A stretch of 64,000 nt of DNA, taken from contig NZ_AP018664.1 of the NCBI RefSeq assembly GCF_003967075.1, positions 2,356,001 through 2,420,000 of the forward strand, given 5' to 3'. Under the pieces are notes generated by a model, which ran no database searches, was not told where the DNA came from, and worked only from the letters and a program-made list of their open reading frames with translations. Origin of the DNA: Sphingobium amiense. GTDB lineage: Bacteria; Pseudomonadota; Alphaproteobacteria; Sphingomonadales; Sphingomonadaceae. The translations under genes and the position numbers were made by a program. Of the stretch, positions 50,027-64,000 are shown one piece after another (the stretch's first letter is position 1; every line of letters begins with the position of its first letter).

Positions 50027-51331
50027 ATGAGCATCCCCCCCGCCCCGCGCCACCCGCTGACCTTCGGCAATTTCCGGGCCTATCTGGTCGGGCGGTTCGC
50101 CGCCGTTCTGGCGCAATATAGCATGATGATCGTGCTGGGGTGGCAGGCCTATAATATCGCACGCGAAACGATGTCGACGGCAGGTGCTTCGGCGCAGCTC
50201 GGCCTCATCGGCCTCGCGCAGTTCCTGCCGCTCTTTTTCCTGACCCCGGTGACGGGATGGGTGGCGGATCATTATGACCGGCGGGCGATCACGCGCGTCA
50301 CGCTTGCGCTGCTGACGGCGGCGGCGGGACTGCTGGCCTTCGCGACCTATGAGGGCTGGGTCAGCCTGCCGCTGATCTTCGGGATCGCGGTGATCGTGGG
50401 CGTGGCGCGGGCGTTCAACGGTCCGGCCTATGGCGCGCTGGCGCCCAATCTGGTGCCGGTGGAGGTGCTGCCCAACGCCATCGCCATTTCCAGCGTCGCG
50501 TGGCAGACGGGGATGATCGCAGGCCCGGCGGTGGGCGGATATGCCTATGCCGCGACGCCATGGGGCGCCTATGCGCTGGCGGCGGGGCTTTACGGCTTCG
50601 CCCTCGTCGCGATGTTCTTCATCGGCAGGGTGCCGCAGCCGCAGCGCGACACCAGCCGCCATCCGGTCCGCCAGATGATCGACGGCGTCACCTATGTGAA
50701 GGGCAACCGGCTGGTGCTCGCCACGATCACGCTGGACCTGTTCGCGGTGCTGCTGGCAGGCGCGACGGCGCTGCTGCCGGTCTATGCCCGCGACATATTG
50801 CAGGTGGGATCGACGGGCCTCGGCCACCTCGCCGCCTCGCCCGGCATCGGTGCGGCGGTGACGGCGCTGTGGTTCTCCTTCCGGCCGATGAAGACGCATG
50901 TCGGCCTGAAGATGCTGGGTGCGGTCATCCTGTTCGGCCTCGCCACCATCGCCTTCGGCTGCACCGCGTTCCTGCCACGATCCATCGCGGTTGAAGTGGG
51001 CATCGCTGCCCTCATCGTATTGGGCGGTGCAGACATGGTATCGGTGTTCGTGCGCCAGTCGCTCGTGCAGATCCATACGCCCGACGCCATGCGCGGCCGC
51101 GTGTCGAGCCTGTCGCAGCTGACCATTTCCGCGTCCAACGAACTGGGCGAGGCGGAAAGCGGGTTCCTCGCAGCGCTGGTCGGGCCGGTGGCGGCGGTGA
51201 TCGGCGGGGGCATCGGCGCGATCCTCATCACGCTTTACTGGGCACGGCTCTTTCCAGAGTTGCGCCTTGCGCATAGTTTCGATCCACCCGACATCGGGCG
51301 AGCGGACATCCATCAGGAGAAAGAGTCGTGA
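50027..51331 (+). CDS. MFS transporter (MFS_3, EntS-like)
   Basis: 434 residues with about 12 membrane helices. It begins '[23 protein letters not shown]' and has the '[17 protein letters not shown]' loop between helices 2 and 3 that marks the family. Members export siderophores or drugs. GGGAGG precedes the ATG. The stop overlaps the cysK GTG start (GTGA), so the two genes are translationally coupled. The substrate is unknown. Confidence 0.9.
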
Positions 51332-52245
51332 AAGCTGCCTCGATACTCGAAACCATCGGCAACACGCCGCATATCCGCGTGCAGCGCCTGTTCGGCGATG
51401 CTGAAGTGTGGATCAAGTCGGAACGGTCGAACCCCGGCGGGTCGATCAAGGACCGCATCGCGCTCGCCATGATCGAGGCGGCGGAGGCTTCGGGCGACCT
51501 CAAGCCCGGCGGCACCATCATCGAACCGACATCGGGCAATACCGGCGTCGGCCTCGCCATGGTGGCGGCGGTCAAGGGCTATAAGCTGGTGCTGGTCATG
51601 CCCGAAAGCATGTCGATCGAACGGCGGCGGCTGATGCTCGCCTATGGCGCGACCTTCGACCTCACCCCGCGCGAGAAGGGCATGAAGGGCGCGATCGAAC
51701 GCGCGCTGGAACTGGTGAGCCAGACGCCGGGAAGCTGGATGCCGCAGCAGTTCGAAAACCCCGCCAATATCGACGTGCATGTTCATACGACGGCGGTCGA
51801 GATCCTGACCGACTTCGGCGACGCGCCCATCGACGCGCTGGTGACGGGCGTGGGCACGGGCGGTCATATCACCGGGACGGCGCAGGTGCTCAAGAAGGCG
51901 TGGCCCGACCTCAAGGTGTTCGCGGTGGAGCCGACGCTGTCCCCGGTCATCAGCGGCGGGCAACCGGGGCCGCATCCGATACAGGGCATCGGCGCCGGTT
52001 TCGTCCCGGCAAACCTCCATACGCAATTGCTCGACGGCGTGATCCAGGTCGATCCCGCCGACGCCAAGGACTATGCGCGGCGCGCGGCGCGGGAGGAAGG
52101 GATGCTGGTGGGCATTTCGTCCGGCGCGACGCTGGCGGCAATCGCGCAGAAGCTGAAGGAACTGCCTGCGGGCAGCCGCGTGCTGGGCTTCAACTACGAC
52201 ACTGGCGAGCGTTACCTGTCGGTGCCCGACTTCCTGCCGGAATAG
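51328..52245 (+). CDS. cysK: Cysteine synthase A (O-acetylserine sulfhydrylase)
   Basis: 305 residues from GTG 51328, overlapping the MFS stop. Makes cysteine from O-acetylserine and sulfide. PLP lysine K41 in 'NPGGSIKDR', the substrate loop '[11 protein letters not shown]' and the phosphate loop '[11 protein letters not shown]' are all present. Works with CysE encoded at 26.9-27.9 kb. Confidence 0.95.
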
Positions 52246-52269
52246 GAACGCAGGTCCGGTCTTTTTGTC

Positions 52270-53589
52270 ATGAGCAATGCGGACACCCCCGCCCGGCCAC
52301 ATGCGGTCATGTGGCTGGTCTGGGCGCTGATCTTCATCGGTCTGCCGATGGCGGTCGCCCATTGGGAAAGCCGTCCGCGCGCAACCGGAGCGGACCGGCC
52401 CTTCGAGGCAGTGGCGGCGGGGGCGCGGCTGCGCGGACCCCGCGCCGCGCCGCCGCCGGTCGAGCCTGTGCAGGTGTTCGCGCTCGATCCTGCTGAGGCG
52501 CGCGCCTTCAACGCGAAAATCCCCTTTTCCCGCGATCCCAATCCGGCGGCGCGGCCTTTCCTCTTTGCAGGAGATGAGGGCGATTTCGCGCGCGCGACCG
52601 ACTGCCTTGCGGCGGCGCAGCTTTATGAAGCAGGCGACGATACCGTGGGCGAACGGGCGGTGGCGCAGGTGGTGCTGAACCGCGTGCGCCATCCCGCCTT
52701 CCCCAAGACGGTATGCGGCGTCGTGTTTCAGGGGCAGGAACGGCGCACGGGCTGCCAGTTCACCTTCACCTGCGACGGCGCGCTGGCGCGGGTGCCGGGC
52801 GCTGCCGCATGGAGCCGGGCGCAGGAGATTGCACGCGCGGCGCTGGCGGGCAAGGTGTTCCAGCCGGTGGGCTATGCCACCCATTATCACACCGACTGGG
52901 TGGTGCCTTACTGGAGCGGCAGTCTCGACAAGATCACGGCAGTGGGCACGCATCTCTTCTTCCGCTGGCGCGGCTGGTGGGGAACGCCGCCAGCCTTCCG
53001 CTTCGGGCGCACGCCGGGGGAGCCGGTGGTGCCGAAGATCGCGATGCTGTCGAGGGCGCACCGGGCGATGCCGGGGGGCGGATTGCCCCTGCCGCTGTCT
53101 GAAGGCGCAAGCGCGCTGGCCGCGCATCCCGAACAGGTGGGGATGGAGGCGCTGGGCAAGAGCGTGGCGGGGGTGAAGCTGATCTCCATCGCGGACGCGC
53201 GCAGCTTCCTCGTCGAGCTGCCGCGCGGCAGTGCGCCCGATCGCTGGCCGGAACTGGCGCGCACTTTCTGCGCCGGGCGGACGCAGTGCCGGATCATGGG
53301 CTGGGTCGCGGGCGAAGCGCCCAGACAGGTGCCGCTGACGCTGGCGGACATGGCGGCGATGCGCTTTTCCTACATTCACGATGCGGGCAGCGGGTTGCAG
53401 CGCGCGCTGTGGAATTGCGCCCGGACGCCGCGCGCGAACCGCAACGACTGTATGCGCCAGCGCGTGCCGGTGGCCGTGCCGCCGGTCGCCCCTACCGATG
53501 CGGGGCTGGCGGGCGTCCGGCGCAGGGAGCGGTTCGAAACCGTGAAGATCGTGCCGCCCGAAGCGCCTGCGAACGCGTCAGCGCCCTGA
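52270..53589 (+). CDS. SleB-like cell wall hydrolase (Hydrolase_2)
   Basis: 439 residues. One N-terminal membrane segment (about 13-30) anchors a periplasmic protein. The SleB/CwlJ domain spans about 110-230 ('DCLAAAQLYEAGDD', 'ERAVAQVVLNRVRHPAFP', 'CQFTFTCDG') and carries the catalytic glutamate. The C-terminal 200 residues are less conserved. Probably cuts peptidoglycan glycan strands. It starts 24 bases after cysK; ends 11 bases before the convergent LuxR gene. Confidence 0.88.
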   Translation: MSNADTPARPHAVMWLVWALIFIGLPMAVAHWESRPRATGADRPFEAVAAGARLRGPRAAPPPVEPVQVFALDPAEARAFNAKIPFSRDPNPAARPFLFAGDEGDFARATDCLAAAQLYEAGDDTVGERAVAQVVLNRVRHPAFPKTVCGVVFQGQERRTGCQFTFTCDGALARVPGAAAWSRAQEIARAALAGKVFQPVGYATHYHTDWVVPYWSGSLDKITAVGTHLFFRWRGWWGTPPAFRFGRTPGEPVVPKIAMLSRAHRAMPGGGLPLPLSEGASALAAHPEQVGMEALGKSVAGVKLISIADARSFLVELPRGSAPDRWPELARTFCAGRTQCRIMGWVAGEAPRQVPLTLADMAAMRFSYIHDAGSGLQRALWNCARTPRANRNDCMRQRVPVAVPPVAPTDAGLAGVRRRERFETVKIVPPEAPANASAP

Positions 53590-53600
53590 CCCGGCCCGCT

Positions 53601-54686
53601 TCAGTCGGCGAGCGGGAAGCGCGGCAGGCGGGCGATGCGGGCGACCAGTTCGGACTGACGGGTGACGTCCATCTTGAGGTAGATGGCCTTGAGCTGCGAG
53701 CGCACGGTAGCGAGCGACACCGCCCGTTCCTGCGCCACGGTTTCCACCGCCTTGCCGTCCGCAAGGCCGACGACGATGTCCGCTTCGGCTGCGGTGAGAC
53801 CATAGAGCGCGCGCACCCGGTCGGCGAGGCTCGCGTCGCGGCCATGAGGATCGGTGACGATCATCACGATCTGCCGCTGCTGCCCGGTCCAGATGGCGGC
53901 GATGGACGCCATATAGGGCGCGCCCCGTTCCCGATGCAGCGCAATCGCGCTCGCCTGCGTGGCGTCACGGGCGGCGGCGGCGCGCAGCGCGGAGAAAAGC
54001 CGGGCCTCGTCACGCGGGTCGCGCGCAGCGATCCGCCGCCGTCGCAGCAGCAGCGCATCGCCCGTTCGCAGCATCGCGTCGGCTGTGCGGTTGCTGGCGA
54101 CGATCAGGCCGTCCGTCGCGAGGGTGAAAACGGCATGGTCCAGCAGGTCGAGCGTGGCATGAAGCGCCCGGCCATGATGCACCGCGCGGTCGAGCTTGCG
54201 CCGGATGTCGAACATGCGGCCGAGATGGCCGACCTGATCCTGCACCATCGCAACCTCGCGCGCGTCGAAGGCGCGCTGCGTCCGCCCGCGATGCAGGCCG
54301 ACATGGCCAACCGCCTCGCCATGCTGGACGACGCCGCCAAGGCAGCGAAAGGTGTCGTCGCCCATCGGGCGTATCCATTCATTATATATGCGGCTGCCTT
54401 CATAGGCGCTGTCGGGCACCATCGAGTCGAAGGCCCAGACGCGGTTGGACGGTCGCCCGTCCAGCGCCCCGCCCCACAGGTCGTCGTCCTGAAATTCCTC
54501 GTCATAGACGGCCATCTGGTCGGCCGTGAAATAGCCCGAATAGCTGATTTCGGTCGCGTCGCCGGGCCTGCGCCCCCAGTGCAGCACGGCGGAACGCGCG
54601 CCCGCGGCTTCGGCCAGCAGGGCCGCGAGCCGGGCGAAGGCGTCATCGTCGGCGGCGGCGTCGTAAATATCTTCCGTGCGAATCAC
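53601..54686 (-). CDS. LuxR-family transcriptional regulator
   Basis: 361 residues. The C-terminal LuxR helix-turn-helix spans about 295-350 ('YGLTAAEADIVVGLADGKAVETVAQE', 'LATVRSQLKAIYLKM'). The long N-terminal region (1-280) has PAS-like features ('TLDLLDHAVFTLATDGLIVASNRTADAML') and no autoinducer domain that I can see. Divergent from the MFS gene at 54.8 kb, which it may control. Confidence 0.88.
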   Translation of the reverse strand: MIRTEDIYDAAADDDAFARLAALLAEAAGARSAVLHWGRRPGDATEISYSGYFTADQMAVYDEEFQDDDLWGGALDGRPSNRVWAFDSMVPDSAYEGSRIYNEWIRPMGDDTFRCLGGVVQHGEAVGHVGLHRGRTQRAFDAREVAMVQDQVGHLGRMFDIRRKLDRAVHHGRALHATLDLLDHAVFTLATDGLIVASNRTADAMLRTGDALLLRRRRIAARDPRDEARLFSALRAAAARDATQASAIALHRERGAPYMASIAAIWTGQQRQIVMIVTDPHGRDASLADRVRALYGLTAAEADIVVGLADGKAVETVAQERAVSLATVRSQLKAIYLKMDVTRQSELVARIARLPRFPLAD

Positions 54687-54807
54687 GGGGGCAGTCCTGT
54701 TTCGGGCGAAGGTCAGAAGTGCCGTATCACGGCATATTTTTGCGAGCCTTGGACGAATCGGACAAAATTTGCGTTAAGGCCGGGCGGTTTATGGATACTG
54801 GAAACCT

Positions 54808-55989
54808 GTGCGCGCTCCCCGATCCCCTTCCGTTTCTGCCCCGTCCGTTCTGGCCCCGTCCGTTCTGGTCCTGTCGGTCATCGCCCTGATTGTGCAGGGC
54901 GGGACGCTGATGACGCTGCCCGCGATCCTGCCGCACATGACGGGCGATTTCGGCTCCCTCGGTCTGGCGGCGACTGTTCTGCTGGTGGCGATGAGCGGCG
55001 GGAACCTCATCGTCGGCCGGCTGATCGGGCGGATGGATGCGCGTGCGGTGATCGCGGGCGGCATCGCGCTGGCGGCGGCAGGATGGCTGGGCGCGGCGAT
55101 GGCGCAGGATAGGATATGGCTGACGGCGGCGCTCGCACTGACGGGGGCGGGAATTGCGGGTTCGACCATCGTGCCGGGCATCGCGATCATCACCCGCGAC
55201 ATGCCGCAGCGGCGGGGCGGGGCGCTGGCGCTGTTTCTGGGCGCGACGATATTGGGCGGCGCGATCATGCCGCCCGCGCTGACGCTGATCGCGGACCTAT
55301 GGCACTGGCGCACGGCGATGATGCTGGCGAGCGCGGCGATGCTGGCGACGATGCCGTTGCTGCTGGTCGTACGGCGCGGCCTCGCTACCGGGGCCGATGC
55401 GCCAGATGCCGGGCGGACAGCGGTCTTGCCGCGCCCCGGCGCGGTGCAGGTGACGGCCGCGATGACCATGGTGCAACTGTCGATCAACGGCATCCTTTTC
55501 GCCCTGGTCGATGGGCTGATGCGGCAAGGGCTGAGCCATGGGCAGGCAGTAACGGCTTTTGGCATTGCGAACTTCATGGGGCTGCCCGCCCTGCTCGCCG
55601 GAGGGTGGGTCGCCGACAGGATCGGGGGCAGAGAAGCGTTCGCGCGCAGTGGCCTGATGCTCGCGGGGGGAAGCGCGGCGCTGCTGGCGGCGGGACCGTT
55701 CGGGATGGCGGGCGTCGCCGCCTTCGTGCTGCTGTGGGGCGTGGCGAGCGCGCTGCCGGGCCAGACCGGCGCGATGATGATCGCCGAGGTCGCGCCGGGC
55801 GCGCGATTCCCTGCCCTGCTGGGCACGGCGGTCGCGGTAGCGAGTCTGGTGGGCGCGCTGGCGCCGATGCTGACCGACATGATGCTGGCGGCGGGCGGCG
55901 GCCTTGCCGGGATCGTCATCGCCTATGCCGGTCTGGCGCTGGGCGGAGCGATGCTGGCGGGAGGGCGATGGAGCCTCTTCACAAAATAG
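54808..55989 (+). CDS. MFS transporter
   Basis: 393 residues from GTG 54808 (GGAA 5 bases upstream), about 12 membrane helices. 'GNLIVGRLIGRMDARAVIAGG' lies in the helix 2-3 loop and 'ITRDMPQRRGGALALFLGATILGG' in the middle. The first 20 residues are encoded by a 15-bp tandem repeat. Divergent from a LuxR-type regulator. The substrate is unknown. Confidence 0.88.
   Translation: MRAPRSPSVSAPSVLAPSVLVLSVIALIVQGGTLMTLPAILPHMTGDFGSLGLAATVLLVAMSGGNLIVGRLIGRMDARAVIAGGIALAAAGWLGAAMAQDRIWLTAALALTGAGIAGSTIVPGIAIITRDMPQRRGGALALFLGATILGGAIMPPALTLIADLWHWRTAMMLASAAMLATMPLLLVVRRGLATGADAPDAGRTAVLPRPGAVQVTAAMTMVQLSINGILFALVDGLMRQGLSHGQAVTAFGIANFMGLPALLAGGWVADRIGGREAFARSGLMLAGGSAALLAAGPFGMAGVAAFVLLWGVASALPGQTGAMMIAEVAPGARFPALLGTAVAVASLVGALAPMLTDMMLAAGGGLAGIVIAYAGLALGGAMLAGGRWSLFTK
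54828..54872 (+). repeat. 15-bp tandem repeat at the start of an MFS gene
   Basis: Three 15-bp units of the type gtccgttctggcccc, the first diverged, encode the repeated SVSAP, SVLAP and SVLVL-like peptide just before the first membrane helix. The unit is a multiple of three, so copy changes would keep the frame. Confidence 0.7.
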
Positions 55990-56177
55990 GAGATTGCTCC
56001 TATATGCGATCAGGAAATCGGTCCTGCCCGCCGCTCGTTGGCGGAAGGGACCGTCCCCCGGATCGCCCGGGGACCGGCACCGGCTAGCGTCCGGAACCGG
56101 CGGGATTGGGCGAATTTGGGCGGGTTTACAGACGCTGACAGTGCGGATCGGACAGTCCCGGCCCGCACTTTTTTGCG

Positions 56178-56210
56178 TGGAATGACAGGCGCGAATCGCC
56201 GGTCATTCCA
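56178..56210 (+). other. Stem-loop in the rpoB leader
   Basis: TGGAATGAC pairs with GTCATTCCA (9 perfect base pairs), extended by GGCG/CGCC after one mismatch. It lies about 67 bases before the rpoB ATG with no T run after it, so it is more likely a leader structure or processing site than a terminator. Confidence 0.5.
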
Positions 56211-56276
56211 CCGCAACAGGGCTGAATTTCCGCTGCGATGCGGGAAAACACGACGAACCGTTACAGGCAGGAACGC

Positions 56277-60443
<4,167 letters not shown>

Positions 60444-60446
60444 GGA

Positions 60447-60997
60447 TTGTCGCTAGTTTCGGACACTGAACTCAATCCGGTTTTCCGCCAGTTGGTGGAA
60501 AACTCGGATTGGGTCTGCATCGAAGCCAAGGGAAATGCCCTAAGCAGGTCTGAGCGCATTGAAAAGGATGGTGTTATCCTCCACTATTTCTCCGAAATTG
60601 GAGGATCGGATCAGATGTTTGACGCAAGGTCTACCGCTCTAGTTCGCGCTGAGAATAACGTGACGGTGGTTCCTAGCTTCAAACGCACCTTTGCCGATCT
60701 GGGCCTAAATTTCACAGGTAGCGACTTGGATTTTAAGACAGTAGATCAAAATTTTGAGACGGTGAGGGGTTATCTTGGCGACAAGAAACGCCTTCTTGAA
60801 CGCGTCGAGGAACAGGCAAAGCGCATACTGGAAGCAGTAATCGACGGAGCAGGCATGGTTCGTGGCCTGCCTCATTCATTGCAAGATGGAGAGCATTTGC
60901 AATGGAGGAGGAGAGTTGACGAAACTTACAGGCGTGCCGCTAGCGAACAGCTGCCGAAATATGAACAAGCAATAGAATCTCTTTCGAGGAATTCGAA

Positions 60998-61001
<4 letters not shown>
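60447..61001 (+). CDS. Unknown gene inserted between rpoB and rpoC
   Basis: 184 codons from a TTG at 60447, 3 bases after the rpoB stop and in the same frame. AGGA directly abuts this TTG, which is too close for a normal Shine-Dalgarno. An in-frame ATG at 60615 has a perfect GGAGG 10 bases upstream and would give 128 residues. The stop overlaps the rpoC ATG (ATGA). GC content is about 49% by hand count, against about 58-62% in sampled rpoB and rpoC lines. The protein is soluble, with no signal peptide or membrane segment; a mixed N-terminal half is followed by a helical, charged C-terminal half ('[19 protein letters not shown]'). I do not recognise a family. Probably acquired by transfer. Confidence 0.75.

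Positions 61002-64000
<2,999 letters not shown>

Follow-up and report, generated by a model that had tools for sequence, protein, structure and literature searches.

Gene entry into operons is thought to be rare, and the introduction of Oliveira et al. 2017 (PMC5635113) likewise describes operons as places where new genes rarely integrate; such an event is least expected between rpoB and rpoC, the two largest RNA polymerase genes. The window analyzed here, a stretch of 64,000 nucleotides on contig 1 of the 4.77 Mb genome of Sphingobium amiense (G000), carries a gene at exactly this position. The locus raises the question of how this gene came to lie within an essential operon, how it is expressed there, and what its protein may do. 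Searches of the available literature yielded no description of a gene inserted at this junction; the one paper that names the position between the two genes, PMC5660063, deals with mycobacterial identification.

Organization of the rpoB-rpoC Junction

All three genes are encoded on the + strand. rpoB occupies positions 56277..60443, with its stop codon at 60441-60443, and the inserted orphan gene, which begins with a TTG codon and encodes a protein of 184 aa, extends over 60447..61001. The list of open reading frames and inspection of the sequence place the start of the insert 3 bases past the rpoB stop codon, and its 3' end contains the ATGA with which rpoC begins (60998..64000, cut by the window end). 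The original prediction had described this arrangement as a 184-codon frame with a 3-base gap after rpoB and an ATGA overlap with rpoC, and each of these elements was confirmed. Its estimate of about 49% GC for the insert agrees with the computed value of 48.8%. The insert is also poorer in GC than its flanks, as had been stated, but the approximately 58-62% assigned to the latter was slightly low, as rpoB has a computed value of 64.1% and the portion of rpoC that falls within the window one of 62.7%. At third codon positions, GC content is 49.7% in the insert, 86.6% in rpoB, and 87.9% in the same part of rpoC.

Neither a promoter-like site nor a + strand terminator-like site was found at the insert. 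The motif GGAG at 60437-60440, which is carried by the last codons of rpoB and lies six bases before the TTG of the insert, is a plausible candidate for its ribosome-binding site, and GAGG at 60986-60989 is predicted to be the likely ribosome site of rpoC. A search of positions 60380-61080 revealed no direct or inverted repeats of at least 12 bases, a length below which target duplications would escape detection. A transposon or insertion sequence was considered and finds no support, given that no terminal inverted repeats or target duplication of at least 12 bases surround the insert.

The Junction Varies among Sphingobium Species and across the Family

Of 94 Sphingobium genomes, 88 yielded an rpoC start, and the rpoB-rpoC junction of each of these was read and assigned to a class by simple script rules. 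By these rules, an ordinary spacer of 73-92 bp is present in 66/88 junctions, a repeat-element motif in nine, and another type of spacer longer than 100 bp in five. A 37-codon open reading frame (MKRMRL...) occurs in three junctions (L050, L051, and L066) whose flanks occupy two branches in the tree described below, a tRNA-like element in one, and a gene of more than 140 codons in four. The tRNA-like element, located just 5' of rpoC (L032:1366-1500), resembles by eye a tRNA-Leu with a shortened anticodon loop, and ARAGORN made no call there.

The four gene-bearing junctions belong to the window's genome, S. wenxiniae (G116), G023, and G030. The product of the G023 gene, 143 aa in length, has a match named for S. 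estronivorans, and the G030 gene encodes a 152-aa protein whose match is named for Sphingobium sp. HBC34; inspection of the latter sequence by eye suggests membrane helices. That the insert is foreign to the ancestral operon and probably horizontally mobile, in keeping with the original prediction, is supported by the 84 of 88 junctions that are empty of a large gene.

Across the family, 397 genomes were searched for rpoC and 360 of them yielded it, 11 of these being Sphingobium genomes; from the best-scoring matches listed, 120 junctions of other genera were picked. Among the 119 that were readable, the gap measures 23-236 bp in 116 and 914-932 bp in three (L187, L189, and L209, sharing a single genus code). 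Each of these three gaps, which represent all read genomes of that genus, holds a 264-codon open reading frame, and the frame of L189, the one checked, scores over the cut-off of the FkbM methyltransferase model in Pfam. This FkbM-type gene resembles the Sphingobium insert in being a coding gene inserted at the same junction, but it encodes an unrelated protein of a known family, lies in a gap with a GC content of 0.59-0.64, and ends before the start of rpoC. Three other genera carry, between rpoB and rpoC, open reading frames of 61-78 codons that end in the rpoC ATGA (L096:1089-1301, L162:200-433, and L130:1119-1301); their products resemble two-helix membrane proteins by eye and have no Pfam match over the cut-off.

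Two control junctions were read in 30 genomes. No insert longer than 400 bp was found between rpsL and rpsG (29/30 genomes read) or between rpsG and fusA (30/30), where spacing ranges from 130 to 304 bp across the 30 control genomes. It is not proven that the rpoB-rpoC junction is uniquely permissive, as 30 control genomes are too few to show this.

The Insert Took the Place of a Structured Spacer

Alignment of 34 of the 65 listed ordinary spacers (e.g., L049:1415-1500) revealed a common 10-bp hairpin with compensatory changes, in which 8 of 14 predicted pairs have undergone a double change at least once. All 34 aligned spacers also retain a leader hairpin of four pairs (CCCU/AGGG), and the motif CCCTC is found in 61 of 66 ordinary spacers. 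Five loci were searched against Rfam and gave no match. These hairpins are possibly a processing or polarity-control element, and it is this ancestral hairpin spacer whose place the insert took.

The precise fit of the insert and its coupling to rpoC had originally been read as a sign of selection for co-expression with RNA polymerase, an interpretation for which the survey provides no support. rpoC begins with ATGA in all 88 Sphingobium genomes read, and the frame that ends at the TGA of this ATGA is already open for at least 10 codons in 51 of the 66 ordinary spacers. Coupling therefore requires no special selection, and, the overlap being near-default, it constitutes weak evidence of a polymerase role; the junction is moreover occupied elsewhere by the unrelated FkbM-type gene. 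The idea that an in-frame stop closes the ordinary rpoC leader, which would then have needed alteration before the ATGA overlap could arise, was also rejected, because the opposite was seen in those 51 spacers.

Coding Status and Homologs of the Insert

A search of approximately 5.8 billion proteins returned four at E <=0.001, consisting of the window's own protein and three homologs of 177-184 aa in which the frame is kept. The homologs are 73% (a protein named for S. baderi), 57%, and 46-47% identical to the window protein, and the latter two, P0004 and P0005, come from short contigs of 1239 and 1632 bp. In S. wenxiniae, a copy with the same start and overlap is present at the same junction; its product is 72-73% identical to the window protein and nearly identical to the S. 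baderi-named protein. A profile built from the four proteins matches two of the 94 Sphingobium genomes, and these are the same two that it matches among the 397 family genomes. The search for the same insert at the same site in relatives, which the original prediction had called for, located it by homology, among these genomes, in S. wenxiniae besides the window's genome.

Because three homologs keep the frame and the S. wenxiniae copy lies at the same site, the open frame of the insert is not a product of chance. Between the window and S. wenxiniae, 12 of 76 synonymous and 16 of 254 non-synonymous sites are changed in codons 1-110 (p 0.017), and 40 of 41 synonymous and 55 of 134 non-synonymous sites are changed in codons 111-168 (p 6e-12). 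Judged by these substitution patterns, the insert genuinely encodes a protein, and purifying selection acts on both of its parts.

The same comparison bears on the possibility that the insert is a translated filler, in which an open frame stands in for the lost hairpin spacer by keeping ribosomes on the RNA and the protein itself does little. Such a role would be in keeping with the covarying hairpin and conserved leader that the ordinary spacers carry and that the insert replaced. It would also be in keeping with the 3' end of the gene, which includes the likely ribosome site of rpoC and is its most conserved part: a run of 70 bases that spans codons 169-184 and the first rpoC codons (60951..61020) is identical in S. 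wenxiniae. However, purifying selection acts on the amino acids of both segments, and full length is kept in proteins that are only 46-57% identical, which makes a filler function improbable.

A Mosaic Gene with a History of Its Own

The conserved part of the insert, codons 1-110 (60447..60776), encodes the N-terminal motif LxPxFxxLVExxxW and differs from its S. wenxiniae counterpart by a dS of 0.177 and a dN of 0.066. In codons 111-168 (60777..60950), by contrast, synonymous sites are saturated in the same comparison, and the difference in synonymous change between the two segments is pronounced (p 2e-19). Since codons 111-168 are saturated while codons 1-110 and 169-184 are close, the intervening segment has been replaced through recombination. 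At the protein level, residues 1-112 of the window protein share 85-90% identity with the S. baderi protein (P0003) and about 50% with P0004, whereas residues 113-165 are 62% identical to P0004 and 38% identical to the S. baderi protein. Based on these sequence comparisons, the window and S. wenxiniae genes are mosaics of differently related segments.

The history of the flanks was reconstructed in a tree of 88 rows from the rpoB and rpoC flanks alone (about 1.3 kb), so that terms such as sister or separate branches apply to the flanks and not to whole genomes. The four gene-bearing rows fall on separate branches of this tree, which entails four changes, all of them forced by well-supported branches. 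S. wenxiniae pairs with a genome that has an ordinary 86 bp spacer (G034), and the flanks of the two, compared window by window, differ by 1.8%; the junction is thus filled in S. wenxiniae and lacks the gene in its nearest flank relative. Grouping the window's genome and S. wenxiniae in one clade is rejected on the flank data (p-AU 2.7e-5). Between these two genomes, the dS of 0.177 in codons 1-110 compares with 0.339 in the rpoB tail and 0.329 in the rpoC head, a difference that favors transfer after the two had split but is of marginal significance (p 0.04-0.05). From these flank and gene comparisons taken together, the history of the insert differs from that of its flanks.

These data also address whether the insert is an ancient, vertically inherited operon member, an outcome that the original prediction had set against its own proposal and that is disfavored here by the 84 of 88 junctions without a gene of more than 140 codons and by the empty row nearest to S. 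wenxiniae. A gene long resident in the rpoBC operon of Sphingobium could have been lost in most species by recombination with empty-site DNA, and the dS evidence against this scenario is only marginal. Nevertheless, each loss would have to rebuild the conserved, structured spacer, and codons 111-168 depart from the divergence of the flanks, so that such an origin is quite improbable. More generally, the patchy, patchwork distribution suggests gain, loss, and exchange of genes at the rpoB-rpoC junction in different species.

Protein Families and Possible Functions

The insert protein had not been recognized when the gene was first noticed, and profile searches bear this out, with no meaningful-score match in any of the four collections used. 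No Pfam family scored over its curated cut-off for the window protein or five other proteins, and no NCBIfam family did so for the window protein, the one searched. The best PHROGs match was at E 0.16 for the window protein and E 0.031 for the five other proteins. No PADLOC family matched the window protein, and the best E value, 0.015, was obtained for P0005; a new defense system would be absent from these models. A phage-encoded origin, which had been suggested, finds no support: 50,697 phage records contain no convincing homolog (best E about 3), and none of 31 candidate stretches from a pattern-based scan of viral contigs was confirmed. A role in polymerase modification or in anti-phage activity is possible for the insert protein.

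A stretch resembling LxPxFxxLVExxxW is common to the N termini of the window, G023, and G030 proteins. Over the first 30 residues, a region picked after viewing, alignment of the window protein with the G023 and G030 proteins gives scores of 34 and 37, compared to approximately 16 (s.d. about 3.4) for shuffled sequences, of which 0/1000 score as high. Full-length comparisons of the window protein with either of the two are weak, and the comparison of the G023 and G030 proteins with each other is not significant (0.128). Common descent of the three proteins is likely, as indicated by the shared N-terminal stretch.

The location between rpoB and rpoC invites the proposal that the protein is directed at the polymerase itself, binding RNA polymerase, for example, as a shield against phage inhibitors or for tuning, with the site securing a stoichiometric, co-translational supply. 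Two more proteins at the same site with a weak N-terminal LVExxxW motif are consistent with this proposal, as is the rapid change of one segment while the rest of the protein is kept, a pattern that an arms race would yield. On the other hand, the same junction is used by small open reading frames and by an FkbM-type methyltransferase (three genomes of one genus), and the ATGA overlap is near-default. In addition, the gene-bearing S. wenxiniae and the empty G034 differ by one amino acid in the RpoB tail (314 residues) and by none in the RpoC head (130), so that no co-adaptation is visible in those parts. A polymerase-directed factor is, on balance, unlikely.

A low-confidence structure model predicts a helix and a four-strand meander for codons 1-110 and places codons 111-168 in a helical hairpin; an alpha-beta-beta-beta-alpha fold of the dsRBD/HicA or AcrIIA4 kind was among the candidates considered. 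The protein may thus consist of two parts, a conserved N-terminal helix/beta domain and a helical hairpin whose sequence has been swapped. As a guess, weakly grounded in this architecture, such a two-part protein would be more in keeping with recognition or antagonism, whether in immunity, against phages, or against specific competitors, than with fixed housekeeping at the polymerase. In a more elaborate proposal, which is distinctly unlikely in its entirety, the junction would be an allele-swapping site of a fast-diversifying family. Three dissimilar members with the LxPxFxxLVExxxW motif, carried on the polymerase messenger, would guard RNA polymerase or another critical target against phage or competitor factors, and their recognition hairpin would be swapped by recombination.

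A Model for Cassette Exchange at the Junction

Taken together, the data are explained somewhat better by one model than by its alternatives combined: the insert would be an exchangeable single-gene cassette that is swapped via recombination in flanking rpoB and rpoC and that hitchhikes on the polymerase transcript for its expression. According to this cassette model, the gene would spread when double homologous recombination takes place in the conserved sequences of rpoB and rpoC on either side, without an integrase or transposase. It would be expressed as part of the rpoBC transcript: ribosomes would load at the GGAG in the last codons of rpoB and, at the ATGA, start anew on rpoC. Under these circumstances, the insert would need no promoter of its own and translation of rpoC would be preserved.

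Genes joining existing operons are not without precedent. Price et al. reportedly described, in 2006, ORFan genes joined to operons, and Omelchenko et al. are said to have described mosaic operons in 2003. The present case is like these in that an orphan or foreign gene is inserted in an existing operon. It differs in that the operon is rpoBC, the insert itself is mosaic, and different genes are found at the same junction across species.

A closer parallel for the proposed route of exchange is provided by transfer hotspots between core genes. In Oliveira et al. 2017 (PMC5635113), hotspots are described as diversifying by recombination in their flanks, a mechanism proposed there for hotspots without mobility genes, and double recombination at the core genes flanking hotspots is also described. 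The rpoB-rpoC junction shares with these hotspots a patchy accessory gene, the lack of a mobility gene inside, turnover among relatives, and flanking homology that suffices for exchange. In contrast to them, the insert sits inside an essential operon and is a single gene read with that operon.

Within one family, the rpoB-rpoC junction has been rebuilt repeatedly, holding a hairpin spacer, repeat elements, a tRNA-like element, small open reading frames, a methyltransferase, or a mosaic orphan gene. The tolerance of an essential operon for cargo thus becomes a testable question, as does the possible transfer of accessory genes between species by recombination tracts in rpoBC.

Genomic Surroundings of the Operon

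Several features of the wider neighborhood were observed in passing. In the window, the region 5' of rpoB (51328-56237) contains, by eye, open reading frames resembling a cysteine synthase, a cell-wall hydrolase, a LuxR-type regulator, and an MFS transporter, and not rplJ-rplL. About 2-7 kb past the window end, after rpoC (L217:2534-6971), the translations resemble a toxin-antitoxin system of the HigBA type, a serine resolvase, and a transposase of the Tn3 type; in the same genome, rpsG lies approximately 0.5 Mb away.
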